From the NCBI RefSeq assembly GCF_007970665.1, contig NZ_CP042430.1, positions 248,001-312,000 of the forward strand: a stretch of DNA of 64,000 nt, in the 5' to 3' direction. Position numbers and translations under genes: made by a program. Source of the DNA: Baekduia soli (GTDB lineage: Bacteria > Actinomycetota > Thermoleophilia > Solirubrobacterales > Solirubrobacteraceae). Numbering within the stretch: the first letter of the stretch is position 1; the number at the start of each line of letters is the position of its first letter. This document shows positions 39,045-56,035 of this stretch, in pieces. The notes under the pieces are model-generated. The model was not told the DNA's origin. It saw only the letters and a list, made by a program, of their open reading frames with translations, and searched no databases.

Positions 39045-39394
39045 GATCAGCGCGCCCGGATCCGCGGCGCCGCGGAGCTCGATCTCGTGGGCATGACGAC
39101 CAATCTAGCCGCCGACGAGGTCGCTCCGAACACACCTCGCCCGAGGAGCGCATCGCCGAGGCGCAGCGGCTCTCCGGCGGTGCCGGGGCGGTCTAGTCGG
39201 CGGCAGATGCGTCCGGCAAACCAGTGATCAAGACGACTGATCACCGGCACCGCTTCCGGACCGAGCTCCCAGCTGCATCGCGGAAACTTGTCGATTTCAT
39301 CGCCGGTCTGGCCGCCGAACATCTCGGCGAGATCACCCGCGTCGGCAGCCACGAAATGCACCGCGAGGACGTTGGCCGTCACACGCCACGTTGG

Positions 39395-39414
39395 CGGGAC
39401 TCGCCATCACCCAG
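39395..39414 (+). repeat. Third tRNA-Phe attachment-site remnant
   Basis: CGGGACTCGCCATCACCCAG is identical to the end of tRNA-Phe plus following bases at 55885-55904, and differs at one base from 23600-23619. The rest of the tRNA is absent. It may be the right end of one element in a stacked array. Confidence 0.6.
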
Positions 39415-39439
39415 GAACCCTCGCACTAAGCGGGGGTTT
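39415..39439 (+). terminator. Intrinsic-terminator-like hairpin after the third attachment remnant
   Basis: AACCCTCGC pairs with GCGGGGGTT around loop ACTAA, with TTTC following. A terminator right behind a tRNA 3' end is what the native chromosome downstream of tRNA-Phe would carry, so this may be the original right flank moved away by later integrations. Confidence 0.55.
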
Positions 39440-39450
39440 CGTCGTCCCGA

Positions 39451-39546
39451 ACGAGATGAGCGACGGTGCTCTTAGCACCGGCGCCGTCCGAAACCGGCAG
39501 TGTCCAAGCGGCCGTGAGACTGATCCGCGGTTGTTCACGGGCAGAC
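39451..39546 (+). ncRNA. Partial copy (E3) of an unrecognised repeated RNA-like element
   Basis: Shares blocks with 52141-52240: ACGAGAT-AGCGA-GGTGCT, a GTGTCC, then CTGATCCGCGGTTGTT and GGG-AGAC. Contains a perfect 7-bp hairpin, CGGTGCT-CTT-AGCACCG (39464-39480), at the place where the other copy has a different but also pairing stem. The upstream hairpins of the full copies are missing. Function unknown. Confidence 0.4.
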
Positions 39547-39673
39547 ACTTCGCCTACCCGAGCGCCCTTGGCAAGTTGGAGCACCATGGGGCCTTGCCGT
39601 CGACGTGCGCCCGTTGGCAAGCAAGGCCAGCGCTGATCTTCTATGTCGGGTAGGTTCGGCGGCAACCAACCAA

Positions 39674-39687
39674 GTGGCATATGCCAC
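39674..39687. promoter_or_regulatory. 14-bp palindrome GTGGCATATGCCAC
   Basis: Perfect palindrome ending 14 bp before the ABM-like gene start, directly upstream of its ribosome site. A likely operator for this gene. Confidence 0.45.
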
Positions 39688-39701
39688 GAGAAAGGACCGC
39701 C

Positions 39702-39992
39702 ATGTACGCAGTCGTTCGAAGCTACTCCGGGCAGGGCGCGTCGGAGGTGTTCGATCTCATCGAGCAGAAGGCGAAGGACGTCGAGAGCCTTCTTAGCGGG
39801 GTTCCGGGCTTTGTCAGCTACACGGCCGTGCGTCGCGATGACGGCGGCGTGACCGTGACGGTCTGTAAGGACAAGGCCGGAACCGACGAGTCCACCCGAC
39901 GCGCGGCGGAGTTCGTGAAGGAGAACGCCAGCGCCCCGGGCAACCCGCCCGCGATCACCGAGGGTGACGCGGTGGTTCAGTTCAGCTCCTAG
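39702..39992 (+). CDS. ABM-like dimeric alpha/beta-barrel protein
   Basis: 96 residues from the ATG of MYAVVRSYSGQG, with GAAAGGA six bases upstream. Strand-helix-strand pattern (YAVVRSYSG, PGFVSYTAVRRDDGGVTVTVC, AAEFVKEN, GDAVVQFSS) fits the antibiotic-biosynthesis-monooxygenase or stress-response A/B barrel fold. Catalytic role unknown; many such proteins only bind ligands. A palindrome sits at its promoter. Confidence 0.75.
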   Translation: MYAVVRSYSGQGASEVFDLIEQKAKDVESLLSGVPGFVSYTAVRRDDGGVTVTVCKDKAGTDESTRRAAEFVKENASAPGNPPAITEGDAVVQFSS

Positions 39993-40078
39993 CGCCGCAT
40001 GCGGCCGCTGCGCTCCCGCCTGTTGCTGCGGAGGCAGGAGCGCGGCCCGGCGGTAGCGTTGCGCATGAGCGACGGTCC

Positions 40079-40306
40079 TCAAGTCCTCAGCCCGACGAGC
40101 CGCCTGCGCGGCTTCTGCGACCGTCTCCTAGTCGTAGATGCCCTCCCGCCCGGCTGGCAGGTAGCTGAGCACCGCGGCGGGCTCACATGGGCGAACTCGG
40201 TCAGCAGCAGGAACCCGGTCAGGATCGCGAACGCTCCACCGAGCGAGCCGTCCACGAGGCTCGCGACGACCGCCAACGCGGTGCCGATGGCGGCGGTCCA
40301 CGCCAT
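40079..40306 (-). CDS. Small membrane protein, unknown
   Basis: 75 residues; the first 40 are hydrophobic (MAWTAAIGTALAVVASLVDG, AFAILTGFLLLTEF), followed by a basic tail with two Cys. The Arg-rich last 20 residues may be read-through beyond the ancestral stop. Six bases downstream of another tiny membrane ORF. Confidence 0.42.
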   Translation of the reverse strand: MAWTAAIGTALAVVASLVDGSLGGAFAILTGFLLLTEFAHVSPPRCSATCQPGGRASTTRRRSQKPRRRLVGLRT

Positions 40307-40312
40307 GACCCG

Positions 40313-40432
40313 TCACCACGTGCTGGTCCTGGACAGCGCCTGCGGCAGGCGATAGCCGCGCGAGGCGGCGAAGATCAGGGCGAGCAGACCCACCGTGCCC
40401 AACACCATGATCGCCGCATCCAGCCCGTCCAC
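40313..40432 (-). CDS. Possible 39-residue single-helix membrane protein
   Basis: GTG-started frame (VDGLDAAIMVLGTVGLLALI and onward, ending LSRTSTW) with one membrane helix and a basic end. It sits 6 bp before the next small membrane gene, so the two may form a small operon. Too short for a family call. Confidence 0.35.
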   Translation of the reverse strand: MDGLDAAIMVLGTVGLLALIFAASRGYRLPQALSRTSTW

Positions 40433-40930
40433 AGCCCGGGTCTACGCACTGCGCGTACACGGGCGCCCGGACGACCGGCGTGCCGACGGTTCAGCCCAAT
40501 GGCCGGCCCGCAAGCTCTCCGATCCGATCGAGCATCAGGCGGTCTCCGGTCGGTCTCCGGTTCCGTCCGCCTGATTGGGCTTCACCTGAGTCGCCCTGAG
40601 CCAGATCGACGGCGACGCGTCGTCCTCCGCGTCGCGCCAGCTTCAGATCACGACATGGTGATGTGACAATGCCGCCTGGGGCCGAGAGAAGCCATGGAGA
40701 GGTCCATGCTGGCCGTTCATCGGTGGCGCTTGCGTGTAACGGCCACGACGATCCGGCGACCGTCCTGAGAGACTCGCCTTGCGCCTGAGGGCGGTCGCGC
40801 GGGAAGGGCGCTCCGGATGCTCGTTGGACTCGCAAGCGCATCGTCGAGGCGCAGCGTGACTCGTTGAGGGGTACGTGATGGCCCAGCAGCGATCGACGGT
40901 GTCGAGAGAGAAGCGCTCGGACCTCGAGAG
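40433..40930. other. Region without a recognised gene
   Basis: No convincing coding frame, repeat or hairpin. Confidence 0.35.
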
Positions 40931-41221
40931 GTGGTGCGGCTACTGCGGGACCTTGAGCGGGTGGACGCGACGAGGCAGAGCGAGGGCGGCTGGGCCGTCC
41001 AGCATGAGGTCCAGGACCAGCCGGTTTTCACGCATTCAACGCAGGCCGAAGCTGAGCAGGCGGCGAGGTCCCGCGCCACCAGAATGGCGATCTGGAAGTC
41101 GTCCATCCACCGGCCGACGGACGGATCCGCGACTGCGACACGATGGATCCGCGCACGAGAGCGACGCGCCAGACACCGTCCGCTGAAGAGGGTGCTGCCG
41201 GCCGCCCGGGCCAGGATATGA
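40931..41221 (+). CDS. Possible DUF2188-like small protein, perhaps degenerate
   Basis: GTG start. Residues 20-65 (GGWAVQHEV, FTHSTQAEAEQAARSRA, SSIHRPTDGS) recall DUF2188, which has a W.V strand, a T..EA helix and a vHxxDG turn. The end is Arg-rich and runs into the RNA-like element at 41194, so the true stop may have been lost. Low certainty. Confidence 0.33.
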   Translation: MVRLLRDLERVDATRQSEGGWAVQHEVQDQPVFTHSTQAEAEQAARSRATRMAIWKSSIHRPTDGSATATRWIRARERRARHRPLKRVLPAARARI

Positions 41222-41325
41222 GGGCTTCGGGCAGCCGGCAGCGGCATCCATGCGAGGCCGAGAGGGGGAACCCTGCGGGCCTCAGACGAGGTGGTAGAAC
41301 GGCGTCGTCTCAGAACCGTCCCGTT
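41194..41325 (+). ncRNA. Repeated structured RNA-like element, copy E1
   Basis: Hairpin P1 pairs 41194-41208 with 41228-41242 (15 bp, one C.A mismatch) and closes the conserved loop around CCAGGATATGAGGGCT. Then GCATCCATGC, then hairpin P2 pairing GAGGCC (41254) with GGCCTC (41278) around GGGGGAACC, then ACGAG. Copy E2 keeps the loops but changes the stems: P2 there is GAGACC/GGTCTC, a compensatory G-C to A-T change. I do not recognise it as a known riboswitch class. A 79-residue gene starts 145 bp downstream. Confidence 0.55.
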
Positions 41326-41469
41326 GTCGTCTGCGCCCGACGTATCCGGGGGAACCGGGCTCTGATTCTCGGAGTGTCTGGATCCGGACAGATTGTCGGG
41401 GTGGTGCGAAGCATCCGTCTGTGCTCGCGGCCCGACGACTTGGCTGGGACCGTCGTTAGGGTTTGCGCG

Positions 41470-41709
41470 ATGACCGGCGATCGAGATGGGCGAGCTCACG
41501 CGCGGGATGTTGCTGCGGCCAAGCGGGATGCCGAGGCAGCGGTTCGTGACGGCCTGATGGACGAGACGACGATGAGCGAGCGCGAGTTGGATGCTCGGAA
41601 GCAGGCACGGGCCGATCGCGAGGCCTCGCTGGCGGATCGCATGGCGTCTGGCGCCGATCGCGAGGCGGCGGCCGAGGCTCGCCGGGCGGCGCAGCGCAGC
41701 GGCGAGTAG
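41470..41709 (+). CDS. Small highly charged helical protein, unknown
   Basis: 79 residues (MTGDRDGRAHARDVAAAKRD...), almost entirely Ala/Arg/Asp/Glu with repeats of the type ADREAS/ADREAA. Predicted long helix, possibly a coiled coil or nucleic-acid-associated protein. It lies downstream of RNA-like element E1 and ends 3 bp from the convergent Cys/His protein gene. Confidence 0.5.
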   Translation: MTGDRDGRAHARDVAAAKRDAEAAVRDGLMDETTMSERELDARKQARADREASLADRMASGADREAAAEARRAAQRSGE

Positions 41710-41712
41710 CAG

Positions 41713-41922
41713 CTAGGGCTGCCAGGGCCGGCGTGGATTGGTCGGGTCGCCGGTGTACCAGGACCAGAATTCGCGCGTCTTCGGCGTACGCAGGTCGGCG
41801 TCAGCGATGGCCGTGTGGCGGTCGCACAGGTAGATCGGCGCGTGCGCGGTGCCGACTTGGACCGAGCGCGTCTCGGTGCTGAGCTTGTCGCACGCTGGGA
41901 ATTCGCATCGTGTGAGGGTCAT
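41713..41922 (-). CDS. Small Cys/His (zinc-finger-like) protein, copy 2
   Basis: 69 residues from the ATG of MTLTRCEFPACDK. CEFPAC, LCDRH and RTPKTREFWSWYTG line up with CDSPGC, LCRRH and RTPRNQDFWRWVG of the protein at 29429-29662. A strong 15-bp inverted repeat lies 25 bp upstream of this start. Function unknown; probably zinc-binding. Confidence 0.62.
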   Translation of the reverse strand: MTLTRCEFPACDKLSTETRSVQVGTAHAPIYLCDRHTAIADADLRTPKTREFWSWYTGDPTNPRRPWQP

Positions 41923-41946
41923 GGCGTCGTCTGGGTCGAGGAAGGT

Positions 41947-41983
41947 GAGTGCGCTCTGCTCCCCCAGAGAGCAGAGCGCACTC
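41947..41983. promoter_or_regulatory. Perfect 15-bp inverted repeat between divergent small genes
   Basis: GAGTGCGCTCTGCTC and its exact reverse complement are separated by CCCCAGA. It sits between the Cys/His gene at 41922 (minus) and its relative at 42138 (plus). Either a strong operator or a hairpin in the 5' leader of the minus-strand gene. Confidence 0.6.
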
Positions 41984-42137
41984 GTACTGACCGGGATGTC
42001 CCTCCCACACGTCGTGTTCGGTCGGGCGATATGAGCGTTGCTGCGCCAGAGTCCGAAAACTGACGTACTGGACGGACGCGTCGTCGGAGTTGCTGAGGAC
42101 ATCCTCAGCAGTCAGCGCTGCTCGGTATGTTCGCGGC

Positions 42138-42338
42138 ATGTTGGTGTCCCAGGACGGCCGCGCGGGGTTCCTGGTCTGCGACCACCCGTTGTGCGATCGC
42201 ACGAGTGATCGATTCGTTGCCTATCTGGGCGGGTCGTTGCCGGATGGCTGGGTGATCTCCGTCCGGTTTCGCAGTCAGGGCCTGGCCGGCCACCTGTGCC
42301 CCCGGCACGCGGGAGAGACCACCGCGACGCCGTCGTGA
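42138..42338 (+). CDS. Small Cys/His (zinc-finger-like) protein, copy 3
   Basis: 66 residues from MLVSQDGRAGFLVCDHPLCD. CDHPLC and HLCPRH match the two metal-site parts of the other island copies; the RTP...FWxW tail is missing. Divergent from copy 2 with a shared palindromic gap. Confidence 0.52.
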   Translation: MLVSQDGRAGFLVCDHPLCDRTSDRFVAYLGGSLPDGWVISVRFRSQGLAGHLCPRHAGETTATPS

Positions 42339-42448
42339 GGGAGGCCAACCCCCTTATCGCGGTCCGGGCCGAGAACAACGCGTAAGCTCGATAGCCCTAG
42401 CCGCCGATGACGGGTACCGAGAGACGTGGCCATCGGTCTGGATAAAGC

Positions 42449-42499
42449 GCGGCCGGCGGCCCGCAGCGCACATCGGGTACGCCGAAGACCGCCGGCCGC
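42449..42499. repeat. 11-bp inverted repeat with a 29-nt loop
   Basis: GCGGCCGGCGG (42449) and CCGCCGGCCGC (42489) are exact reverse complements. A hairpin this GC-rich could end transcription of the 42138 gene or be part of a small RNA; no U-tract follows. Confidence 0.4.
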
Positions 42500-43573
42500 T
42501 AGCTGAAACCCTGTCCCGGGTTCGCCGCCAACATACTCCGGCGCCGGTCAGCGACTTCAGGTATGAGTTCGCTGTCACATTCAGCGTCCTGCAACCTGCG
42601 GAGGGACGGGTCGTCGCTTCTGTGGCTCGCGTGGCCGTCCTGAGTCGCGGCACAGGTCGGTCCGCGAGGCCTGTTAGGTTCGCGCCACAACGACTGCTCT
42701 GGTGGTCCGTAGGCTGGCGACGCCGCGGCCACCACACCGCATGGGTCGTCAGGGGTACGGGAAGAACACCGACTGCGCCCGGGTCAGCCCTCGAGTTCAC
42801 CGGGCGTGGCGGCGGCCGGGTCCCTGCATCCCTGGCCGCCGTCATGGCTTGGGCTTCGTCGGACGTAGCCTCGGGCGTGCGTGTCACCCCGACCGCAGTC
42901 CTCATTTCTATGCCTGTCGTGTGTCTGGGATGCGGACCCCGAGCACGAGGTCGGCTTGCAGACGGCAGGGATGATCTGCACCCCATGCGGTTCAGTCTCT
43001 CGGACCGCCTGCCTAGGGTCTGGTGCATGGCCGGGACAGCCTGAAGAGCTGCATCGTGCCGCCATGAGGTTTGGCGACGCGGTCACCGTGGCCTTGGTGC
43101 GTTCCCGCCCCGGCAGGGGATATGGGCCGGGACGGCCGCACGGCAAGCCACGGGAAGATCCTGATCCACGTGGCCGCGAGCACCATTCCTTGGACGTTGT
43201 CGCCAAGCCGGTGCGACGCCCGTTGCACGGGCTTTGCCGGCCGAGGTGCGCGACTACCAGAACCTCGCCGCGGCTTGGAGGTCGCCCCGTGGTTGCTCCG
43301 GCCGACTACGCGGTGAAGTCAACGGCGGTGGAAGGCCTCGACGAGCTGCACGAGGCGGGCATGGCGGTCCTTGGGCCCAGCCGCACGTAACGGCTCGAGT
43401 CGTTCGCGTGCCTTGGTGAAGCGGGCCAGCCTGTGCTTCGAATGCGAGTCCACCGCCGCGACCGATGCGCCCCTGTCTTGAAGAATGGACATGGACACGT
43501 TATTCCCGAGCGACGCAGCGATCGAACTCAGGCAGTTGTGAACCGCGCCTTGGTGGGAGTGGCGTTCCGGCTG
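42500..43573. other. 1-kb region without a recognised gene
   Basis: Only short frames with shuffled-looking composition on both strands. Possibly decayed genes; none identifiable. Confidence 0.4.
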
Positions 43574-43635
43574 GGCCAGAGCCCGGAACGCTGCCTCAGC
43601 CCGGGCGGGCCAGTGCCCGGAACGCTCCCTCAGCC
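43574..43635. repeat. 28-bp tandem direct repeat (period 34)
   Basis: GGCCAG-N-GCCCGGAACGCT-N-CCTCAGCC occurs at 43574-43601 and 43608-43635, with two base differences. It overlaps the end of the small membrane ORF on the minus strand. Confidence 0.6.
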
Positions 43636-43863
43636 AGGGTTCGCGGACGTGCGGAGGCGCGGCGACTCCGTCGCCAGACATCCCAGCGACGAGGCGATCC
43701 CAAACCGACGCTTCCCGCTAGTGCGTCGGCCGCGGCCGACCAACTCTGACGCGCTTGCACAGTACGCCTCGAGCCCGCCGCCTAGACCACCGAACACGGA
43801 GGCCAATCCGAGACCGACGGCGATGATCAGGACCAACGCGATGATCGCGATTCCGCCTTCCAT
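43630..43863 (-). CDS. Possible small membrane protein, unknown
   Basis: 77 residues beginning MEGGIAIIALVLIIAVGLGL with a Gly-rich turn after the helix and a basic tail. GGGAA lies three bases before the ATG. The tail beyond residue 50 overlaps the direct repeat and may not be original. Confidence 0.4.
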   Translation of the reverse strand: MEGGIAIIALVLIIAVGLGLASVFGGLGGGLEAYCASASELVGRGRRTSGKRRFGIASSLGCLATESPRLRTSANPG

Positions 43864-43968
43864 GATTCCCGGAGTAGCCGGTGCATGTGACCCACAAGCC
43901 GAGTTCGACGGACGCGGCTTCCTTCAGAAGGCGCGACCGGCAGAGGCGTCTGATCGACAACCTCTTCG

Positions 43969-44220
43969 TCACCTAGATTGTGCGGCCCAGCACCTACCGA
44001 GACGCGGCCTTGGAGCCCTTGACGGCCGCTGGCGCGACTGATCGAGCACGGCGGGGTGATGCGCATCGACGTCGATACCCGTCATTAACCGCAGCCCTGT
44101 CGCAGCCCGACGTGTTCGGCGATGGTGCGCGGCGGCCCGGCTCGCCGCCTGGACGCGCGGTCGCGTTGGACGGGCGCCCCGCCGGCGACTCGACCCGGGC
44201 TGGGTCATCTCGAAGGTCAT
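43969..44220 (-). CDS. Possible small basic protein with strong ribosome site
   Basis: The ATG at 44220 follows AAGGAG at eight bases, the best ribosome site in this stretch. The frame gives MTFEMTQPGSS and then a long Arg/Ala run without domain features. The start may belong to a gene that has since lost its frame. Confidence 0.28.
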   Translation of the reverse strand: MTFEMTQPGSSRRRGARPTRPRVQAASRAAAHHRRTRRAATGLRLMTGIDVDAHHPAVLDQSRQRPSRAPRPRLGRCWAAQSR

Positions 44221-44644
44221 GAGCGGATCTCCTTCGCGCGTCCTACGTGCATCGTTCGCCGCGCCGTCGGGCCAGACAAGGCGCCAAGCGCGTAGCAACG
44301 CGCCTCACCAGTACTCCGAGAACCACGGTGCACGCCGGGGCAACTCGGCGAGGGGCTACCCGACGGCGAGTCATGCACTGCTCTCTATACGTCACCACGG
44401 AAGTCCCTGCGCCGAGTCGCGCATGTGGCGCGCCTGATGCTTGGCAGCGGCAGAAGCGCTGCCTCGTTAGATGCCACATCCGACACTCGCCGACGCGCCT
44501 ACGCCCCGCTCAGTCGGTCGCCCGGAGCCAGGATGGGACCAGCGCGCGCAGCCACGACGTCGCCGCCACAATACGTGGGCCTCAGCCGTATGTGCCAAGG
44601 GCCAACCCGACGAGCGAGCACCGGCGCCCGCGTGACAGGCCTGG
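44221..44644. other. Region without a recognised gene
   Basis: No coding signal or structure of note. Confidence 0.35.
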
Positions 44645-45040
44645 TTACTCAGCGCCAGCTGCGAAGTTCATCCGCACGCGCGTGCCGCCCTCAGGCCGGT
44701 TTTGCACGTCGAAGTGTTCGCAGAGCGAGGCGATTAGCGGCAGGCCAGGCCCAGCCCGGGACTGTCTGCGCGGGGCCGCACGCCGCGTCCGTCGTCGCAA
44801 ACGGTGATGTTAAGACCGTCATCGGGCACGCGGTAGGCGTGCAGCTCGATGTCCCCGGGTGCGGAGCAGTCGGTGTAGGCGTGCATCACGACGTTGGTCA
44901 GCGCCTCTGACACCGCCACCGCTAGGCCTTCGGTCCGCGGCCCCGTGCTCGTTGGCATACGCCACGACTTGGTGGCGCGCGCGACGGACCGCCTCAGGGA
45001 CAGCGGAGAAACGCCAGACTTCGGCGGTAGGCGGTTCCAT
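44645..45040 (-). pseudogene. RsbW/SpoIIAB-type anti-sigma kinase, two frameshifts
   Basis: The N-terminus starts at 45040 (MEPPTAEVWRFSAVPEAVRR...VVAYANEHGA), typical of RsbW-like HATPase proteins. After a shift near 44940 it continues as EGLAVAVSEALTNVVMHAY (N box) and ITVCDDGRGVRP (G1 box). After a second shift near 44745 it ends GLPLIASLCEHFDV, GGTRVRMNF and stops at 44645. All parts of the fold are present and in order, so decay is recent or the shifts are sequence errors. It was probably the kinase for one of the island STAS proteins; a STAS gene reads divergently 209 bp away. Confidence 0.75.
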
Positions 45041-45248
45041 GTGCTGGTGGTGCCCGGCGAGGAGAGCGCCGCGAAGCAGTTGCGAACGGATTGTCAGCGT
45101 ACAGACGGCGGCGGTAGCATACGCGCCACTTCTTAAGGCGCGTTGACCGTCGCGAGGTAAGAGGAAGACCAGGTAGCGAGCGATCGCCCGATTTTCGAAT
45201 CCCGCCCCGTTTGAGCTGGACCAGGAGCGTTGGAGCGACGGCACGATT

Positions 45249-45515
45249 GTGCTGTGGGTCCGGGGAGAGCTGGATGTGGTGTCGACGCCAGTTCTGCGCG
45301 ACATGCTCGACGCGCTGGCCGGAAAGGGTCGGACCGTAATGGTCAACGTGCGAGAGGTCACCTTCATGGACTCCACGGGCCTGAACCTGCTGATCCGGTC
45401 CAAGCAGCACGCCGAGCAGGACGGCTGGTCCCTGAGAGTGGCACGCGAGGTATCGCCACAGGTCGCCCGGCTCTTTGAGCTGACGGCCATCTCGGAGTAC
45501 CTGCTGTCCGAGTAA
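45249..45515 (+). CDS. STAS-domain anti-sigma factor antagonist, start uncertain
   Basis: 88 residues from the GTG at 45249. VRGELDVVSTPVLRDML and VREVTFMDSTGLNLLI hold the STAS core and the phospho-acceptor Ser. Coding-like sequence (FELDQERWSDGTIVLW) continues upstream in frame to 45177, where a stop lies, without an ATG, GTG or TTG. So the true start is either lost, or the first strand is translated from a non-standard codon. Close relative of the STAS gene at 24977 in layout. The RsbW remnant lies divergently. Confidence 0.75.
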   Translation: MLWVRGELDVVSTPVLRDMLDALAGKGRTVMVNVREVTFMDSTGLNLLIRSKQHAEQDGWSLRVAREVSPQVARLFELTAISEYLLSE

Positions 45516-45549
45516 AGGCTCCCGGGCGCCCACGCCGACGGGCACAGCA

Positions 45550-45820
45550 CTGACGGCCTCGAAGCAGCGCATCGCCGTCGGCGGCGCCGAGGTCCATGAC
45601 TGTCAGCGTGAGTCCGGGTCCAAGGCTGCCACGTTCGGCCCCCAACACACCGACCGTGAGGTTCACCAGCAGGACATCTCCGAGGCCAAGGACGAGGTCG
45701 ACATGGGCCGCAACAGGGACAACCGCAACGACGCGAAGGACGAAATCCCGATGCTTACCCAGCACCTGCAGATCGCACAGCAGCTCGGCGGCCAGCTCGC
45801 CGCCGGCCCTCTCGGCTAGA
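45550..45820 (+). other. Open frame without start, possible gene fragment
   Basis: One frame is open for about 90 codons ending at the TAG near 45820 (ending TQHLQIAQQLGGQLAAGPLG), rich in Asp/Arg/Gln. No start codon, no known domain. Possibly a relic of a small charged protein. Confidence 0.25.
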
Positions 45821-45839
45821 CCATCCGCGGGAGTGTCCT

Positions 45840-46252
45840 GAGACCTGGACGCACAGCCGCCTCATCTGCGCCGCCGGGCTACGCCAGATCGCTCGATGCG
45901 GGCCAGGCGCCGAGCAGGCCGCCCGCTGGGTCTCGCTCGCGGACACGATCGTCTCTGACACCGCAGCACACGCGGTCCATCCCTCCGGGCGTTGGCAGCG
46001 CTCGCCAGGCGACGTGCGCGTGGACGCCGCCCTGTTGCTGCCTGCCATCCGCGGCGCGATCCCGGCCTCCGACCCCCGCTCACTCGCACGCTCCAGGCCG
46101 TCGCGACAGAGCTCACCCAAGACGGCTACTGCTACCGCTATCGCCCTGACGAACGGCCCCTGGGAACGTCTGAAGGTGCGTTCCTGCTCTGCGGCTTCCT
46201 GTTGTCGCTCGCGTTCGCCCAGCAGGGCGACCACGTCAGCGCCACCCGCTGA
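45840..46252 (+). pseudogene. Fragment of a GH15 family glycoside hydrolase
   Basis: From about 45843 a frame reads HSRLICAAGLRQIA, then GRWQRSPGDVRVDAALLLPA and RGAIPASDPRS. Near 46085 it shifts to another frame with TLQAVATELTQDGYCYRYRP and EGAFLLCGFLLSLAFAQQGD, ending at 46252. This is the C-terminal half of the GH15 (glucoamylase/trehalase-like) catalytic barrel. The N-terminal half, with the first catalytic acid, and the last part are missing. Confidence 0.7.
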
Positions 46253-46595
46253 GCAAGGATGCCGAGGGCGCCGACGGCGTGGCGCTGCGGCGGTGGCGGT
46301 CGGCCTCTCTCCATCCCGGCCGCCACCGGCCATCCGCTCGCACCGGACGGGGCCTCCACCCCTTGGCCCGGGTGCACCGTGGTGGTTCCCGTTGCGTCTC
46401 GGTGATGGACGCTGCCAGCCGGTCCGACTGTCCGGCGCAGGACCACCGGCCGGCGGGGTCGCATGGCGAGGCGTCGCGGCGGCGATGACGCCCATGGACA
46501 CCAAGAAGGGCAACGGCCGTCTCCAATGCCCTCCTCCCGTCCCCTGTCGCCCGCGGCCTCATACCTGTCGCGGACTCTCGGCAGGATCTGGTTTC
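46253..46595. other. Region without a recognised gene
   Basis: Between the hydrolase fragment and a terminator-like hairpin. Nothing recognisable on either strand. Confidence 0.35.
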
Positions 46596-46625
46596 ACCGT
46601 CGGCCCCCTTATCGGGGCCGACGGT
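46596..46625 (-). terminator. Terminator-like hairpin after the two small minus-strand genes
   Basis: ACCGTCGGCCCC and GGGGCCGACGGT pair perfectly (12 bp) around CTTATC. It starts 14 bp past the stop of the 46640 gene on the minus strand. No T-run follows, so it resembles the GC-only terminators common in actinobacteria. Confidence 0.6.
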
Positions 46626-46639
46626 CGTTCAGGATCCCC

Positions 46640-46906
46640 TCAGGCGGTGGGGCGGTGGTCGTCGTCGGACGCGGCGCCGTGTTGGTCGGGGCCGGTCGCC
46701 GTCAGCGCCTCGAGGGTGGTGCTGCCGACCTGAAGGCGCATGGCGATTTCTGCCGTGGTCAGGCCGAGGTTCAGCGCCTCACGCACTAAGACCACGATCC
46801 GAGCTAGGGCCGGCGCCGCGACGGGGTCGCCGTGTCGTCGAGTGATGGAGCGTCGATGCCCCTCGACGGTCAGCTGGCTTCGTATCTCGTCGATGCGCTC
46901 GGTCAT
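46640..46906 (-). CDS. Small helix-turn-helix-like protein, unknown
   Basis: 88 residues. The segment LGLTTAEIAMRLQVGSTTLE has the spacing of a LuxR/sigma-70 region 4 type recognition helix. It overlaps the upstream CxxC protein gene by four bases (ATGA) and is followed by a terminator-like hairpin, so the pair forms a compact operon. Possibly a DNA-binding regulator. Confidence 0.55.
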   Translation of the reverse strand: MTERIDEIRSQLTVEGHRRSITRRHGDPVAAPALARIVVLVREALNLGLTTAEIAMRLQVGSTTLEALTATGPDQHGAASDDDHRPTA

Positions 46907-47097
46907 GCTGGCGCGGGCGGGCCGGGATTGATGTGACGGCGCACCCGCAGATGCCGTTGGCGTTGCATGACCAACGCGAGTGCATCGGTGGTCGTCATTT
47001 CGGCCAGCCGTCGGCGACAGTGCGAACAGCGGTCAGGGCGCGGGTCGCCTGCATGGATCTTCAAGCAGGTGGGACAGACAGCGCAGGTCGCAGGCAA
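46903..47097 (-). CDS. Small CxxC...CxxC zinc-ribbon-like protein
   Basis: 64 residues with CPTCLKIHAGDPRPDRCSHC, a four-cysteine zinc ribbon, then a basic tail (RQRHLRVRRH). Translationally coupled to the HTH-like gene. Probably nucleic-acid or protein binding; unrelated in spacing to the CxxPxC family of this island. Confidence 0.58.
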   Translation of the reverse strand: MPATCAVCPTCLKIHAGDPRPDRCSHCRRRLAEMTTTDALALVMQRQRHLRVRRHINPGPPAPA

Positions 47098-47479
47098 CGG
47101 TAACTCCGATCACGTCCAGAGGTGATGTGTCCGTTGCTTCCCCACTTGCCTGCAATAACAGTGAGGCCGCGTGCCGGTCTGATCCGACGGAGTCCTTGGA
47201 GGCTCCGAGAACGTCGCCGTGCCAAATTGTACTTCGAACGCAGTGCCCTAAGAGCGTCAGACGTGTGGTCCTCGGCCGCGACGTCAGGGCTCCGACGTCC
47301 CGGCGCTGACGTCTCGGTAAGAGGTCAAGTTCAGGGGGTCGCGGCGAAGATCATGCGCAGGCGGCCGAGCTCTCCCTGCGACGGCCGGTGCGCCGGGGCG
47401 TTCCGCGCCACCACCCGATGTGGGTCCCTGCGCGGACGATTCCCCGCTGGTTGCCCCGTCCCGGAACCACACTGGCGCC
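47098..47479. other. Region without a recognised gene; upstream of the PKD protein
   Basis: Probably carries the promoters of the divergent CxxC and PKD genes. No clear motif found. Confidence 0.35.
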
Positions 47480-48649
47480 ATGACTGCATATCGCTGGGCT
47501 GCGCCGCGTTTCGTCCTGCTGCTGGTGGCCCTCGCCGCCTGTGTGCTGGGCCTCACCGGCGGCGTCGCCTCGGCGACCCCGCCCGCGGCGAGTTTCACGA
47601 TGAGCCCCGACCCCGCGGTAGTCGATCAGACGGTGACGTTCACCGACACGTCGACCGATCCCGACGGGGGCACGATCGTGGCGCGCGGATGGGACATCAA
47701 CGGAGATGGCGTCATCAGCGATCCGCTCGGCGCACCGGTGGTGCAGCGGACCTACCACACGGCCGGCATGTACACGATCACGCTGCGCGTCACCGACTCC
47801 CAAGGGGAGACCGCCACTCTTCAACGCACCCTCCAGGTCGGCACGAGCGCACCTCCACCCGACCCGACGCCGACGCCGACCCCGGCGCCTCTCCCGACGC
47901 CGACCCCGACCCCGGCGTCCGGTCCGTCGCCGTCGGCATCGAACCGCACGCCGGTCGCGGCATTCACGTTTTCGCCGTTCGCCCCGACCGTGGGGGCGCT
48001 CGTCTCATCTACCTCGGGGTCCAGCGACGCCGACGGATCCCTGGTCCACCAGCTCTGGGACCTCGACGGCGACGGCCAGTTCGACGATGCGGCGGGCGCG
48101 ACGGTGCAAATCGCGTACGCCACTGCCGGAAGCCGGGCCGTGAGCCTCAAGGTGACCGACGACCGCGGCGCCTCCGCGGTGGCGTTTCAGACGGTCCCGG
48201 TCATCGACGCGCCGGCCGGCGCCGCCTCCGGCGCTCCGACGCCCGCGGCCACCAACACGCCGACGACATCCACGAGGACGACCCGCACCCCGCTGCTGGC
48301 CCCGTTCCCGATCGTGCGCATCCGCGGACAGGTCATCGGCTCCGCCGTGCGCCTCTCGGTGCTCAGCGTCAGGGCGCCCGCGCGTTCGACGGTCACCGTG
48401 CGCTGCTCGGGCCGCGGATGCCCAGTCACCCGCTCGGTGCAGCGCGCCGGGTCCCGCACCCGCACCGTACGCCTTGCTCGCCTGGAGCGCACGCTGCGCG
48501 CCGGGACCGTGCTGCGCGTGTCGGTCACGCGCGCGGGCACGGTCGGCAAGTACACGGAGTTCCGCCTACGAAAGGGGCGCGCGCCGGCTCGCCGCGACCT
48601 GTGCCTACGCGACGGGTCACCGCGTCCGTCGGCCTGCCCGGCGGCCTGA
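47480..48649 (+). CDS. Secreted protein with two PKD repeats
   Basis: 389 residues from MTAYRWAAPRF, which gives a signal peptide (FVLLLVALAACVLGLTGGVASA). PKD domain 1 (about 33-122; SFTMSPDPAVVDQTVTFTD, WDINGDGV, YTITLRVTDSQGE), then a Pro-Thr linker with PTPTP repeats, PKD domain 2 (about 155-245; SSDADGSLVHQLWDLDGDGQ), a second Thr-rich linker and a C-terminal basic domain with VRCSGRGCP of a kind common in this group's surface proteins. Likely cell-surface binding or adhesion protein. Confidence 0.85.
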   Translation: MTAYRWAAPRFVLLLVALAACVLGLTGGVASATPPAASFTMSPDPAVVDQTVTFTDTSTDPDGGTIVARGWDINGDGVISDPLGAPVVQRTYHTAGMYTITLRVTDSQGETATLQRTLQVGTSAPPPDPTPTPTPAPLPTPTPTPASGPSPSASNRTPVAAFTFSPFAPTVGALVSSTSGSSDADGSLVHQLWDLDGDGQFDDAAGATVQIAYATAGSRAVSLKVTDDRGASAVAFQTVPVIDAPAGAASGAPTPAATNTPTTSTRTTRTPLLAPFPIVRIRGQVIGSAVRLSVLSVRAPARSTVTVRCSGRGCPVTRSVQRAGSRTRTVRLARLERTLRAGTVLRVSVTRAGTVGKYTEFRLRKGRAPARRDLCLRDGSPRPSACPAA

Positions 48650-49059
48650 TGCTCGGCGCATCGGGCGGGCCGGCTCGGCAAGCACATCGTGTCTCCGCTC
48701 GATCTCGCCACGGCCCTCGACATGACGAGATGAACCCTGGCACATCGCCCAATGGCTGGGCGTGCCTGCCCTGCTGCGGGCCATCGGTATCTCATCCTGC
48801 CGGGCCGCTGCCTGACCTCAAGACATCCTCTGGTCCAAGGCGCAACGATGAGTCCTCCGGCGCATCAGCGCCGCGGCGGCGAACCGGGATCCCCGACGTC
48901 CGGCCGTGCGTCTTGGGGCCACCGTGCCCAGAGCAGGTCACCGGACCAGATCGCGGATCACCGGAGTCGACCATGCCTGGGCTGTGCGTGACATCAGAAC
49001 CACTCGGTGACCGTCGAGATCGCGTTCCGTGTCGCCCCGCCCGCGGGCTTGGGGCAGGC
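48650..49059. other. Region without a recognised gene
   Basis: Convergent gap between the PKD protein and the DUF1345 gene; no good frame or hairpin with T-run. Confidence 0.35.
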
Positions 49060-49737
49060 CTACTTGGCCAGCGACGCTACGAGGTTGATCGTGGTGGCGA
49101 TGATGAGCGTGCCGAACATGTACGACAACAGCGCATGGCGCGTGGCGGTGTGACGGATCGCCTTGGCCTGCAGGTCGGTGTCTGAAACCTGGAAGGTCAT
49201 GCCGATGGTCAGAGACACGTAGCCGAAGTCGGCATAGCTGGGCGGATCGTTCTCATTGAAGCCGATGCCGCCCGGAACGCCTTCGTAGTAGAGGCGGGCG
49301 TAGCGCAAGCAGAAGACCGTGTGCACCACGCTCCAGGCCAGCAGGATGCTGATGATGCTCGCGCCGATCAACAGGTCCTTGGTCGCGCCGCTGCTGTGGC
49401 TGGCGCGCACGAGGATGATGCCCACGGCCAGCAGGCTGGCCAGGCTGCCGGCGAGCAGCAGGCCATCTGAGGCCCCGCGGCGAGGGTCATCGCGCAGGGC
49501 GTGCCGCGCGGTCCCGGCGGCGTCGACCGCCCACACCGACCACCAGATCCAGGCAAGGAACACGACCGCCGCGATGTCCCAGACGGCCAGCGGCACCAGC
49601 CACCAGATGCCGAATGCCGCGACTACGAAACCGGCGAAGACGCCAATGACAGCGCAGACAATGATCCGGACGCTGGCCGACACACCCCGGGCACGCTCTG
49701 GCATCCGCGCCGTCTGCCCGATCGGAGCCTTGCTCAT
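49060..49737 (-). CDS. DUF1345 integral membrane protein
   Basis: 225 residues from MSKAPIGQTARM; frames upstream to 49827 look non-coding. Five or so membrane helices and the DUF1345 signature: HTVFCLRYARLYYEG, YADFGYVSLTIGMTFQVSDTD and HALLSYMFGTLIIATTINLV. Function of the family unknown. Confidence 0.88.
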   Translation of the reverse strand: MSKAPIGQTARMPERARGVSASVRIIVCAVIGVFAGFVVAAFGIWWLVPLAVWDIAAVVFLAWIWWSVWAVDAAGTARHALRDDPRRGASDGLLLAGSLASLLAVGIILVRASHSSGATKDLLIGASIISILLAWSVVHTVFCLRYARLYYEGVPGGIGFNENDPPSYADFGYVSLTIGMTFQVSDTDLQAKAIRHTATRHALLSYMFGTLIIATTINLVASLAK

Positions 49738-50318
49738 GTGATGTGGATACCACGATCCTGTGCTGCGCACCCCCACAAGGGACGGCGGCGGCGCGTCGCG
49801 TGGCCGGCGGATGGCACCGTGCCTCACCGCTGCTCGCGCGGCGTCACCTGCCTACACGACGGCAGGGTGATCCAACCAAGCCGCCGTTCCCAGGCGTCCG
49901 GGGTCCGCCGAACGTCGCGAGGTCGGCTCGCCCATCAATGGACCGGTCGCCAACACCGGCCGAAACAACGCGACCAAGTCTTCCGGCCTAGACAGCGAGC
50001 TGCCACACCGGCTGAGCATCGCCCTACTCGGACGGGGCGTGACCTCGTATGACTTGCGAGCGGCAGACGTCTCGGCACCGTGGCGTTCATCCGCCCCTTG
50101 TCGACGAGAACCATGCCTCCTCGACGCCGCGCGGAAGGTCACGGCTACCGCCAAGAGACGTCAGAGGTGGCCAGCAGCGACAGCGCTTCGCCAAAGCCCA
50201 CTCCCGTCGACACTCGACGCATCCGGCCCCGGACGATCATCTTCATAGTCTGCGCAACGACCGCCGATGCAGCCCACCCCCTAAAAGTTGGGGTGATGTA
50301 CCGCTAGCGTGTTGAGGG
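49738..50318. other. Region without a recognised gene
   Basis: Divergent gap between DUF1345 and metallophosphoesterase genes. Just before the latter CACCCC-N9-GGGGTG (50275-50295) forms a short inverted repeat that may be an operator. Confidence 0.35.
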
Positions 50319-51830
50319 ATGACCTTTCCCTGCCGGTCAGGAATCGCTGTGGCGGTGGCGCTCACGGCCTCAGGAGCGGTGAGCCCGACCATCGCGCCGG
50401 CAGCGGCACGTGGGTCTTCGGTGTGCCCGGTCGTGGCCTATCAACGGGCGGCCGGCGGGACCTATCTGCTGCAGCCGGTGCGATACGTGCGCGCGGGAGA
50501 TCGGGTCTGGGCGGCGTTTCGTTACAGCGATGCCCGTGGCAGGAAGGCCTACGAGTTCCGCCAGTATCCGTTGGTCGACGGGCGGTTGAGGCTGATCGCG
50601 GTGCGCGAGGGACGGGTGGCCGGCGACGGCGTTGTGGCCGCGTATGCGCGCTCCTGCGTTCCGGACGCCGCGTTGGCCCCGACGGCTCGTCTCGGGCGCT
50701 ATGCCATCACCGTTTCGCTGCCTGTCGCCTTCGCCTGGAAACTGCCGGGCCACCACCTCGCTCCGAGCGCAGGTCCTGTGATCGGCGGAGTGCTCGGTGC
50801 GCAGTCCGCGGCGCCCGTGGCCGCACAGTCCCAGGAGCCTTTCAAGGATGTATCGGCCTCTGAGACCGGGCCATCGCTGGCGCCTGTACCTCCTGCGCTC
50901 CCCGCACCCGGTCCGGCGGCTCCCCCGATGGCGACGACGGCGACCGTGCTGGTGGCCGGTGACATCGCCGAGTGCGTCAACAATGTGCCCGGGGACCCGT
51001 CCCAGGGCCAGCATCCCGGCAGGGGCGCGGTGGCCACCGGACAGATGATCCGGGCGCAGATCGCTGACGGCGGCATCGACGGCATCCTCTCCTTGGGCGA
51101 CCATGTCTATGAGTCAGGCCTCCCCGCGGAGTTTCGCGACTGCTACGAGCCGACGTGGGGCTCCTTTCGCAACATCACCTTCCCGGTTCCCGGTAACCAC
51201 GACTACCGCTGCGGTCAGACCGTGCCGGGCTGCCCGACGCCGGCCGGCGCCTACTTCAACTACTTCGCCGACCGCGCCGGTCCCCCGGGGCGCGGCTACT
51301 ACAGCTTCGATCTCGGCGCCTGGCACATCGTGGCCTTGGACTCCGAGATCGATTCCTCGCCGGCGGCGGCCAGGACCTCGACGCAGATGGCCTGGCTCAA
51401 GGACGATCTCGCCGCCCATCCCAACCGGTGCCTGGCCGCCATGTGGCACCAGCCGGCCTACAGCAACGACCCCCTGCACGGCGACGACCCCACGATGCAG
51501 GTCTACTTCGCCGCCCTGCATGACGCCGGAGCCGATCTCGTGCTCAACGGCCACGTCCATGCCTACGAGCGCTGGGCCGAGCTCGGCGCCGACGGCCTCC
51601 CACAAGCCGGCGGCACCCGCGAGATCATCAACGGCCTCGGCGGCGCCAACATCACCGCTGCCAACACGGGACGACCCGGCCAAGAAGTCGTCTACAACGC
51701 CAACTACGGACTGCTCAAACTGAACCTGGCCTCCGATGGCTACCGCTGGGCCTGGCTCAACGCCCCCAACAACACCAGCCCCAGCGTCAGCGGCCAGCTC
51801 ACCGACTCCGGCACCGGCAGCTGCCACTGA
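50319..51830 (+). CDS. Secreted calcineurin-like metallophosphoesterase
   Basis: 503 residues. Signal peptide (GIAVAVALTASGAVSPTIAPAAA), an N-terminal region of about 170 residues of unknown fold, a Pro/Ala linker, then a purple-acid-phosphatase-like domain (about 205-470) with metal motifs AGDIAEC, LGDHVYESG, PGNHDY, MWHQPAYS and GHVHAYER. Probably an extracellular phosphatase or phosphodiesterase for phosphate supply. The ATG lies 24 bp behind a short inverted repeat. Confidence 0.9.
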   Translation: MTFPCRSGIAVAVALTASGAVSPTIAPAAARGSSVCPVVAYQRAAGGTYLLQPVRYVRAGDRVWAAFRYSDARGRKAYEFRQYPLVDGRLRLIAVREGRVAGDGVVAAYARSCVPDAALAPTARLGRYAITVSLPVAFAWKLPGHHLAPSAGPVIGGVLGAQSAAPVAAQSQEPFKDVSASETGPSLAPVPPALPAPGPAAPPMATTATVLVAGDIAECVNNVPGDPSQGQHPGRGAVATGQMIRAQIADGGIDGILSLGDHVYESGLPAEFRDCYEPTWGSFRNITFPVPGNHDYRCGQTVPGCPTPAGAYFNYFADRAGPPGRGYYSFDLGAWHIVALDSEIDSSPAAARTSTQMAWLKDDLAAHPNRCLAAMWHQPAYSNDPLHGDDPTMQVYFAALHDAGADLVLNGHVHAYERWAELGADGLPQAGGTREIINGLGGANITAANTGRPGQEVVYNANYGLLKLNLASDGYRWAWLNAPNNTSPSVSGQLTDSGTGSCH

Positions 51831-52047
51831 GACGGGTCACGCTTGCGCGAAACCCGGTGCCCAGATGCACGGCGGTGGGTCTGGCATCGCCACCGCGCTA
51901 ATGGCTGCGATTGCCACGGGTGGGACCGAGTGACGGATCACCGGAGATCTGCGGTTCATGCACAGACGGACAGATCCGCGACAGCGGCATGATAGATCCA
52001 GGGCAAGTAGGCCACGCACACGGCACTGCCGCTGGCGCGATGCTATG
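51831..52047. other. Short gap before RNA-like element E2
   Basis: No coding frame recognised. Confidence 0.3.
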
Positions 52048-52240
52048 GGCCGCCCTGGGCCAGGATATGAGGGCTCCAGGACGGCCAGCTAGCCGCATCC
52101 GTGCAGAGACCGAGACGGGGGAACCAATTCAGGTCTCAAACGAGATAAGCGATGGTGCTTCTCAGCTCCATCCCCGTTCGAGGCCAACGTGTCCATGGTT
52201 CCGTGGCTCTGATCCGCGGTTGTTTGCCGGGAGACAGCCC
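52048..52240 (+). ncRNA. Repeated structured RNA-like element, copy E2
   Basis: P1 pairs GGCCGCCCTGG (52048) with CCAGGACGGCC (52076), one C.A mismatch as in E1, around the same GCCAGGATATGAGGGCT loop. P2 pairs GAGACC (52106) with GGTCTC (52132) around GGGGGAACC. Then ACGAGATAAGC and a third stem, GATGGTGCT with AGCTCCATC (52151-52172, one T.T mismatch). The last part (CTGATCCGCGGTTGTT) is shared with E3. No gene follows closely on this strand, which favours an independent RNA or a mobile repeat over a cis riboswitch. Confidence 0.55.
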
Positions 52241-52568
52241 CCCGTCGGGTTTTCACCGCGGACCGCCGCTTGCGATGCTCCGTGTGTGCCGGCCGGACCA
52301 GGTGCTGAGCCTGGCGAGCGTGTGCGCCGCCTCTGTGACCGTCGATGCGCGGAAGCCCAAACGGCAGGTTTGTGGCGGACCCGGGAGCGCATCCGAGGGC
52401 GGAATCTCCTCATCGGCAGCTAGCGCCGGCGGCCTTGGCAGCCCAGTCTCGGTCCGAGGCCGCGCGGCTCCGGCACCTGGGGGGACCCGCAGCCGATCGC
52501 CTATGTCCGTCGTGCTGCCGCGGAGTCCTCACCTGCACCGCGGTGAATGCGGAGTGACGGCCCTGTGG
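52241..52568. other. Region without a recognised gene
   Basis: Only antisense-like frames; nothing supported. Confidence 0.35.
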
Positions 52569-52841
52569 CTACCGCGTGGACCGGAGCACGCGGGCGGCGA
52601 GGGCGCCCACGGCCAGCGGCGACAGGGCGAGCGGAAGGCAGCACCCGCTGACGGTCACGCGATTGCCCCGGCGGGTGCGCGCGCTGTAGGACGGAAACGG
52701 ACCGATGCGTCCGAACCCGCCGCGACCTGCCCGCCCGCCCGGACCGTAGCCTCGGGCTCCGTAGGAGCCGCGGCCACGCTGCTGGCCGCGCAGCACGCGG
52801 CGCAGCAGGTACCGGCCGAAGAACCGTCCGACGACGTTCAC
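52569..52841 (-). CDS. Small Gly/Arg-rich protein with C-terminal membrane segment
   Basis: 90 residues: MNVVGRFFGRYLLRRVLRGQ, then a Gly/Arg/Tyr-rich stretch, then CCLPLALSPLAVGALAARVL. It starts one base after the lipoprotein stop, so both are in one operon. Function unknown. Confidence 0.55.
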   Translation of the reverse strand: MNVVGRFFGRYLLRRVLRGQQRGRGSYGARGYGPGGRAGRGGFGRIGPFPSYSARTRRGNRVTVSGCCLPLALSPLAVGALAARVLRSTR

Positions 52842-52842
52842 G

Positions 52843-53367
52843 TCAGCCTCCGAGCCCGGGTGTGGCGAGGTCCTTGATGACGGTTCCGGCGCTGCTGCTC
52901 TGGCTCCCCAGACGGTCCACGGAGCTGGCGGCGCCGGCGATCGCCGCCGGGTTCAACACCCCACCCTTCAGCGAGGTGGCGAGCTCTCCGAGCTGGCCGC
53001 CGAGCCCGTCCACCTTCTGAGCCAACGGCCGCAGGCGGTCATCGGACAGCGCAGCCCTGTTGGCCTGCTTGAGCTCGTGGACGGCGAAGAGACCGGCGGC
53101 ACCCGCCTTGACCATGACCTTGGTGCGGCCCGGCGCGCTCTTGCTGAACTGGTGGGCGCGGTAGGGCGTGTAGATGTAGCGATGAAACGCTCCGAAGGCC
53201 AGGCCGGTGTGCAGCACGAACTTGGTCTTGGCGAAGTGCACATCGGGCACGGTCGCGGTGGTCTGCTGACCGTTTGCTCCGGTCTGGGTCACCGTCTTGG
53301 TCGCGTTGCCGCAGCCGGCCAGGAAGATCAGTGACACCAACAGTGCGGCGGGCATGGTTCTCGACAC
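52843..53367 (-). CDS. Putative lipoprotein, unknown function
   Basis: 174 residues from the GTG at 53367, chosen for GAGGAG six bases upstream and because it starts just before the lipoprotein signal MPAALLVSLIFLAGCGN with lipobox LAGC. The mature part has a TTxTVPDVHFAKTKFVLH segment and a long helical C-terminus. Exported and membrane anchored. Co-transcribed with the 90-residue gene. Confidence 0.75.
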   Translation of the reverse strand: MSRTMPAALLVSLIFLAGCGNATKTVTQTGANGQQTTATVPDVHFAKTKFVLHTGLAFGAFHRYIYTPYRAHQFSKSAPGRTKVMVKAGAAGLFAVHELKQANRAALSDDRLRPLAQKVDGLGGQLGELATSLKGGVLNPAAIAGAASSVDRLGSQSSSAGTVIKDLATPGLGG

Positions 53368-53908
53368 GGGCTGCTCCTCAGCAAGGATGAGAGCGACGAT
53401 ACGCGTCGCTGGGCTGGACACTGCTGGTGTAGAGCGGTCTTGCGCCGAGAGGCGGTCCTAGCGCGCGGCATACACCTGTGATCCGGGGTAGCCGCTGGTG
53501 TGCCATGTCAAGCATCAGCTGTCCGATGCTCAGTGACCGCCGACCTGCCGCACCGTGCTGAGCATCGCCCGCTGGCCGCCGCAGGCCGACGACCTTGTGT
53601 GCCCATTCGCAAAGGCCCCATGACCGGGCATCCTGAACGGTGTTCGTCCTGCGTAGAGGAACACAGGAGAAGCGACGTCCACTGACGGCTAGTCGTTGCT
53701 GGCCATCTTTCCCGCCATCATCGCCCGGAGCACATTGGGCTATGTGGGTTATGGCTCCTGTCGCGCCGTCAGCCCAACCCCCACCGCTTCGTACTAGACC
53801 AGGGTCTTCTTGGGGTTCTCACCAGGTCTGCGGGCACCTCCACCTAGTCCCCGTCCTGCGTTCCGGCGTCCGACGCCTGAGCGGGGCGCCGGAATGTCCC
53901 GCGAGCCC
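53368..53908. other. Region without a recognised gene
   Basis: No frame with domain or ribosome support. Confidence 0.35.
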
Positions 53909-54289
53909 CTAGGGCGAGGGCGGCCCCGGCGTCTCGTTGACACCGCCGACATAGGCCGGCGGGTACGCGTCACCCTGGCCGTGACGGTCGTCGTGCTTGG
54001 CGAACTTAGAGGTCAGCTTGTCGCGATTCTTGAAGGCCAGGCCGGCCGCGCCGGCCAGGAGCGCAAGACCGCCGGTCTTGCCCTTGCCCTTCGTCCGACG
54101 GCCCTTCGCACCCGAGGAACCCAGCAGGGCGCCGAGGCCGCTGAGCGCCGCGCTCGTGCTCGACTTGTGCGACCGCTTGCTTGAGCGGCCGGGGGACCGG
54201 GAGATCGAACGCTTCGGCGCCGTCGTCGGGCGGCCGAATCGGCTGCTAGCACCGGCGCGCTTTGAGGTGCGTGTGCGTGTGGTGGCCAT
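53909..54289 (-). CDS. Small basic Ser/Arg/Lys-rich protein, unknown
   Basis: 126 residues from the ATG of MATTRTRTSKRAGASSRFGR, with GGGAG nine bases upstream. The first 75 residues are Ser/Arg/Lys rich and disordered, then a short hydrophobic segment (GGLALLAGAAGLAFKNRDKL) and an acidic/His tail. It might bind DNA or membranes. Confidence 0.6.
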   Translation of the reverse strand: MATTRTRTSKRAGASSRFGRPTTAPKRSISRSPGRSSKRSHKSSTSAALSGLGALLGSSGAKGRRTKGKGKTGGLALLAGAAGLAFKNRDKLTSKFAKHDDRHGQGDAYPPAYVGGVNETPGPPSP

Positions 54290-54887
54290 GCGGACGGACT
54301 CCCCGAATGCGCACCCGTCCAAGCAAGACATCGCAACACCCCGGACCTGACCGGGGTTCTTGCCGTGGTCGACTCTTGCTAGCCGGAACGCGCTGTCTCG
54401 CATTCAGGCGCGGCCTGTCGTCATCGGAACGACGGTGCGCCCCACGAGTACCGACCGCGGCCGCGGTATCGCGCAATGGCAGCTAAGCCTTCTCGCACGC
54501 GATCCGTATTGTCGCGGTCGAGGCTCGTGTTCATCCGTGTTGACGTGGAAGTTCAGCACCGGGGTGCCCGACGACACATGATCGTGCGCCGCCGCCCGCC
54601 CCAGACCGTGCGCATACAACGCGTTCAGGCTCTTGCAATTCTCGTGGTGCTTCACCCCGTGCGAACTCGGGCGCCGCGCAGACGCCGAGGAGCGCGATGC
54701 GACAAGCAGACTCACAGCAACATCGCATGTGCCGACGCCACAGAACCTCAGCGATAAGCAAGACCATGTGCATGGCCGCGGTGGCCTCTTGCCCAAACTA
54801 CCCCCAGCACGGTCCCGCAGTACGCAAATTTCGGGCCTCTTCGAGACACGGTCTCGTCTTAGGTCTGTTGCGAGGGTCCGGCGACCG
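54290..54887. other. Region without a recognised gene
   Basis: Nothing supported on either strand. Confidence 0.35.
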
Positions 54888-55854: not shown

Positions 55855-56035
55855 CTGAAAATCGTGGTGTCCCCGGTTCGAGTCCGGGACTCGCCATCAC
55901 CCAGAATTACGTCGATATGCAGGCATAACGCCCGAGCTGGCCGCGGGCTGGATCTGCCGCCCAGTGCCAAGTGGCAAACAGGGTGGCAAACATCGCCCCG
56001 GGGATCCGGGCGCTCGCATCGCCCTGTTGGGCGTG

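Follow-up and report, generated by a model that had tools for sequence, protein, structure and literature searches.

Do two short hairpin-bearing elements in the genome of Baekduia soli, here called E1 and E2, represent a new class of structured RNA? They lie on the + strand of a 64,000-nt window (contig NZ_CP042430.1, positions 248,001 to 312,000; coordinates below are window positions unless stated otherwise), where a sequence-only reading had singled them out as copies of an unrecognised non-coding RNA (ncRNA) carried by a mobile island. We lean towards another explanation, that one stretch, made up of the tail of a DUF2188 gene and the hairpin-bearing ~200 nt behind it, was duplicated and has since diverged into E1 and E2, and that a third copy, E0, comprises only the last 104 nt. 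Homology between the copies, the DUF2188 tail in E1 and the positions of the hairpins are directly supported. While the gene was intact, the downstream stretch would most likely have served as its 3' untranslated region (UTR), a role suggested by two GC-rich hairpins, P1 and P2, that stand directly behind the coding part and by a terminator-like hairpin at the 3' end. The stretch would presumably have been transcribed from the + strand, stopping transcription and shielding the 3' end of the mRNA; termination or stabilisation of the mRNA is suggested by its position.

Three related copies and a DUF2188 gene remnant

E1 (41116-41390, + strand) and E2 (51965-52236, + strand) are homologous over their whole extent of about 275 nt each, with 76% identity within the first 175-180 nt. 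A blastn search of the genome with E2 returned E1 at 76% (query 6-185, E 2.7e-21) and, with the same query, a match at 39444-39535 (query 174-265, E 4.6e-9) that belongs to E0 (39444-39547, + strand), a partial copy of the 3' 104 nt with 74% identity over 105 columns. An nhmmer profile placed E1 at 41113-41394, E2 at 51964-52236 and E0 at 39444-39547; as it was built from E0, E1 and E2 themselves, only these extents are informative. The relatedness of the two elements noted by the sequence-only reading was thus borne out, while its extent of ~130 nt was too short and E0 had escaped it. One 16-mer common to E1 and E2 has just two occurrences in the genome, and these are the two elements. An identical run as long as their longest, 19 columns, arose in 2% of shuffles when the columns of the whole alignment were permuted and in 7.5% when the first 185 columns were used. 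When the 5.2 Mb genome was searched with sequence model R2, which covers the 3' part, only E0, E1 and E2 were recovered; the next match (E 0.0115), considered as a fourth copy, sits within a 723-aa frame and was taken as chance. A coding role for E0, E1 and E2 was also considered and set aside, their frames matching no Pfam or NCBIfam family. The E0 frame, searched in 232 genomes, gave four weak non-self matches (E 3.3e-4 to 0.0064), and the gene that follows E0 (39702-39989) had a sub-threshold ABM match (E 0.016).

The origin of the 5' part is indicated by a DUF2188 remnant at 40979-41186 (+ strand), upstream of and overlapping E1, in which three successive frames hold the PF09954 domain, DGRIRDCDT and AHESDAPDTVR-stop. 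The frame at 40931-41221 matched DUF2188 (PF09954) in Pfam with E 4.4e-7 over residues 17-65, and its score of 30.4 bits against a curated cut-off of 22 assigns it to the family. A genome-wide PF09954 search placed the match at 288979-289125, which corresponds to window positions 40979-41125. With a hidden Markov model (HMM) of DUF2188 from seven relatives, namely those of 30 loci that passed a motif filter, two successive E1-side frames scored (E 2e-7 and 0.0032), the second of them containing DGRIRDCDT. By eye, AHESDAPDTVR-stop in the third frame resembles AHEGPGRDKVH-stop and ANEGPDKDQVH-stop at the loci L079 and L081. The first 50 nt of E1 also match the 3' ends of relatives' DUF2188 genes in blastn against the 30 loci (E 3.9e-5 for L086, 1.4e-4 for L079 and 0.002 for L081). 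The open reading frame at 40875-41186 terminates at the TGA at 41184-41186. Either the DUF2188 gene at E1 is frame-broken or there are sequence errors at that place; given that the gene part is frame-broken as read, the copies are probably decaying.

The gene-tail reading draws its support from E1-E2 homology that extends through the DUF2188 stretch, from the PF09954 match directly upstream of and into E1, and from paired columns being the more conserved ones. The high stability of P1 in E1 and the terminator-like site of E2, both described below, also count in its favour. The counterpart of the tail in E2 (51965-52010, + strand), recognised by nucleotide homology with E1, reads DGQIRDSGMIDP. 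Both copies share this decayed coding end as their 5' part, which is at odds with the unlike neighbours previously described for them.

Hairpins and tests of retained structure

The loop and stem letters named in the sequence-only reading are all present at E1 and E2. In E1, P1 (41194-41242, + strand) begins 7 nt past the TGA and has arms of 15 nt (41194-41208/41228-41242) that are 93% complementary, as had been claimed, around the loop AGGATATGAG. P1 of E2 (52042-52093, + strand) has the same loop and is formed by GCTA/TAGC, GGCCG/CGGCC, CCTG/CAGG and GGCC/GGCT; its inner stem lies within the predicted minimum-energy fold, while the outer GCTA/TAGC was paired by eye and is outside that fold. 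P2 occupies 41254-41283 in E1 (+ strand, arms 41254-41259/41278-41283) and 52106-52137 in E2 (+ strand, arms 52106-52111/52132-52137). The reported change of a P2 pair from G-C (41257/41280) in E1 to A-T (52109/52134) in E2 is seen on the alignment. A similar change in P1 was noted by eye, C41207-G41229 in E1 against T52056-A52078 in E2; MAFFT aligns this T-A pair to a gap and a G, such that a structure-based realignment is needed.

After the gene end of E2, P1 and P2 are followed by a less conserved part and then by a terminator-like hairpin (52201-52219, + strand), found in a terminator scan by its GC stem and T run, with the tail TTGTTT. E0 has a counterpart with the tail TTGTTC (39512-39530, + strand), identified by eye and inside the predicted fold of E0. 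A possible counterpart in E1, CCGGG/CTCGG without a T tail (41355-41372, + strand), was noted by eye only and is outside the minimum-energy fold. A P2 was at first assumed in E0 as well and was dropped once the stretch was recognised as a terminator of tRNA type.

Whether these structures are kept was addressed with tests that overlap one another, that used windows chosen post hoc and whose P values are those of single tests. In the core alignment A4, 40 of 48 paired columns are identical versus 40 of 68 unpaired ones (Fisher P 0.008), the opposite of the conserved loops and varying stems on which the ncRNA proposal had been built; higher conservation of paired columns fits constrained stems or chance. 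The cores of E1 (z -3.96, 0/200) and E2 (z -2.95, 1/200) and the 3' part of E0 (z -2.44, 3/200) each gave a better predicted fold than their dinucleotide shuffles. This is one point for a structured RNA private to the lineage, free-standing or derived from a 3' UTR, consisting of P1, P2 and a 3' terminal domain and selected on the + strand of a segment bounded by tRNA-Phe sequences, which we consider unlikely. Another is the retention of the individual hairpins under random-mutation nulls, with P 0.087 and 0.005 for P1 and 0.11 and 0.0013 for P2 in the two directions. A third comes from E0 and E2, whose 3' folds share 30/33 or 24/28 pairs on the + strand; against 1500 random-mutation nulls in each case this gave P 0.032 and 0.010 (P 0.041 and 0.024 with slightly wider ends), compared with P 0.24 and 0.19 on the - strand. 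A variant that we hold to be similarly doubtful is a small private family of modular, structured 3'-end RNAs, the fold of which would be kept on the + strand via two-sided changes. As part of it, and just as tentatively, the terminal domain may also occur alone, as E0, at an attachment site and with a terminator of tRNA type directly before it.

Against such an RNA, the consensus-fold tests were non-significant both under column shuffles and under mutation nulls. Under column shuffles, the values were 18/300 (+) and 19/300 (-) for the core, 62/300 (+) and 98/300 (-) for the whole alignment, 39/300 and 25/300 for the 5' part, and, for the 3' part, 109/300 and 234/300 with E1/E2 and 140/300 and 70/300 with E0/E2. 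Mutation nulls gave P 0.135 and 0.07 for the core and 0.495, 0.33, 0.215 and 0.45 for the 3' parts. Core pairs shared by E1 and E2 did no better on the + strand (P 0.15 and 0.08) than on the - strand (P 0.06 and 0.08). In their 3' folds, E1 and E2 have only 4 pairs in common, and neither fold is better than its dinucleotide shuffles (z 0.07 and 0.20). Overall, the tests of retained structure are mixed; the proposed ncRNA class is left unsupported by borderline retention tests, and it is not refuted either, given that both cores fold beyond shuffles.

The weakness of most of these tests is also what would be expected if the copies were plain duplication debris without function in a gene-poor segment, their hairpins being chance products of GC-rich sequence partly kept by descent. 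At a window GC of 72%, the P1 energy of E2 is commonplace, being attained in 446 of 3197 windows, as is its core energy (1359 of 3195), and the gene tail is frame-broken. However, the stability of P1 in E1 is exceptional, with an equal found in only 5 of 3197 60-nt windows and in none of the 823 that lie at 39.4-55.85 kb, and a common 3' fold is retained by E0 and E2. We regard plain debris as improbable, to about the same degree as a private RNA.

Several observations weigh against the gene-tail reading. The fold common to E0 and E2, in which several of the changes are two-sided, is more than expected for plain debris. E2 alone scored weakly with the DUF2188 HMM (E 0.17, with an unrelated segment better at 0.082) and had no blastn match to relatives' DUF2188 gene ends at the 30 loci, and its link to DUF2188 therefore rests on homology with E1. 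E0 has no DUF2188 part. The downstream region was not found after the relatives' genes, the best match of core model R1 in the 30 DUF2188 loci having E 0.86. The terminator scan of 39000-53000 returned 4 sites versus 4.0 expected from shuffles, that is, no enrichment; given that such sites are as frequent in shuffled sequence, the site in E2 proves nothing alone. The same scan did not list the hairpins of E0 or E1, and the latter was identified by eye only.

Homologue searches and the tRNA-Phe-bounded segment

A recognised RNA class was not found, in agreement with the sequence-only reading: a covariance-model scan of the whole window with Rfam at gathering scores gave tRNA-Phe only and no match for E0, E1 or E2, and E1 and E2 gave nothing of note in Rfam at E up to 10. 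The covariation test on actinobacterial homologues proposed with that reading had no material, as neither the genus-to-phylum genome samples nor the scans run on contigs, phages and plasmids yielded a homologue; given this lack of homologues outside the genome in the samples, no cross-species covariation could be counted. This result also counts against a private RNA. The samples, which overlap, comprised 7 genomes for the genus, 146 for the family, 232 for the order, 399 for the class and 396 for the phylum, and model R1 searches of more than 40 genomes ran with stricter filters, which can lose weak matches. Blastn against the genus and family genomes found no homologue, with four non-self family matches of 26-37 nt. 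Best non-self matches of R1 were E 0.0052 in one genome of the order sample, which is noise for that sample size, and E 0.0138, at noise level, in the class sample; the phylum sample had no non-self match at E <=0.02.

Individual candidates were rejected on closer reading. One family blastn match (L008) was read and is not a copy of the element; another locus (L026), with a similar GGATATGAG loop, was dropped, having no Rfam family and different surroundings. An exact gapped pattern had 8 matches in GTDB contigs, and, by eye, stems were kept in none of the eight cores. In IMG/VR, an exact 16-mer had 2 matches, both without other motifs of the element, the gapped pattern had 2, of which the one read was not the element, and two 3'-domain patterns had 1 match each, with likeness limited to the pattern itself. 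A phage scan returned no match, and a plasmid scan returned 3 matches (E 0.2) that cover 14-15% of the query.

The location described for E1 and E2 agrees with what was found in that all three copies lie within 39395-55855, a segment with a copy of the tRNA-Phe 3' end on either side (39395-39414 and 55855-55896). The tRNA-Phe gene is at 23539-23611, and its last 42 nt are repeated at 55855-55896 as part of a 300-nt direct repeat (23570-23869 and 55855-56154, 98% identical) that contains the 3' part of the tRNA and the first part of an excisionase-like (HTH_17) gene. We read this repeat as marking where two related elements, integrated at a single tRNA, end. Just upstream of E0, the attachment-site-like copy at 39395-39414 (+ strand), with the tRNA 3' end and the next bases, is identical to 55885-55904 at 20/20 positions and 95.8% identical over 24 positions to 23600-23622. 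It is followed by a terminator of the tRNA-following type (39416-39445, + strand) with matches in the order genomes; a tRNA gene adjoins directly in 6 of 7 examined family-genome loci. On our reading, this internal attachment-like site and tRNA-type terminator (39395-39445) split the region into two tandem segments. Downstream of tRNA-Phe, a comparison with three genus relatives showed nothing shared beyond the tRNA and a short match at 58048-58214. In one genus relative, a second, partial tRNA-Phe 3' end (L071; G006:C1:966319-966356) lies ~14 kb from the intact gene, so that this relative, too, has the site in use for integration. IS3-type transposase genes apart, no integrase was identified in the selection of proteins scanned. 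The setting is compatible with an integration hot spot where elements have stacked up, and the segment with E0, E1 and E2 may be one of these elements.

The three copies lie within 13 kb and share their right edge, where a near-palindromic TGTC...GACA was noted by eye; this could also point to a MITE- or REP-like mobile repeat of the non-autonomous kind that spreads within the segment. However, the genome has three copies only, all in one segment, and the left part is coding sequence; by eye, there are no terminal inverted repeats or target-site duplications, for which no tool search was made. We consider such a repeat very improbable.

Other genes of the region include an IS3-type transposase gene pair (HTH_Tnp_1; rve) at 56498-57726, just past the 55855 repeat, and, inside the tRNA-bounded region, two gene sets with STAS and SpoIIE or HATPase_c_2 domains (24977-26625 and 44737-45515), which are anti-sigma-type regulators. 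At 30121-37589, an 1841-aa acyl-CoA carboxylase-like fusion frame (biotin carboxylase, biotinyl and carboxyl transferase domains) stands beside a 647-aa ketoacyl-synthase III-like frame.

Comparison with known systems

If the gene-tail reading is true, the locus advises caution in calling new RNA classes: duplicated gene tails in GC-rich DNA can mimic one, since hairpins stand at gene ends and the transitions by which duplicates diverge often leave pairs intact. If a private RNA is true, it would be a structured RNA of one genome.

Among DUF2188 genes (PF09954), E1 is like the known members in that its 5' part corresponds to their 3' end, and differs in that its copy is frame-broken and that the downstream hairpin region was not found behind the relatives' genes at the 30 loci. 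Intrinsic terminators and 3'-UTR hairpins are likewise GC-rich hairpins right after a stop codon, and E2 and E0 have a terminal hairpin with a T-rich tail. P1 differs from intrinsic terminators in its 10-nt loop and lack of a T tail, and the terminal hairpin of E1 is doubtful; judged from sequence, the terminal hairpins are candidate terminators. MITE- or REP-type repeats are similarly short, hairpin-forming and multi-copy in one genome, in contrast to the three copies here, one of them a third of the length and with the left part coding. Rfam families such as riboswitches and small RNAs (sRNAs) have compact hairpins alike, as in many cis-regulatory RNAs, yet no family matches the elements at gathering score.

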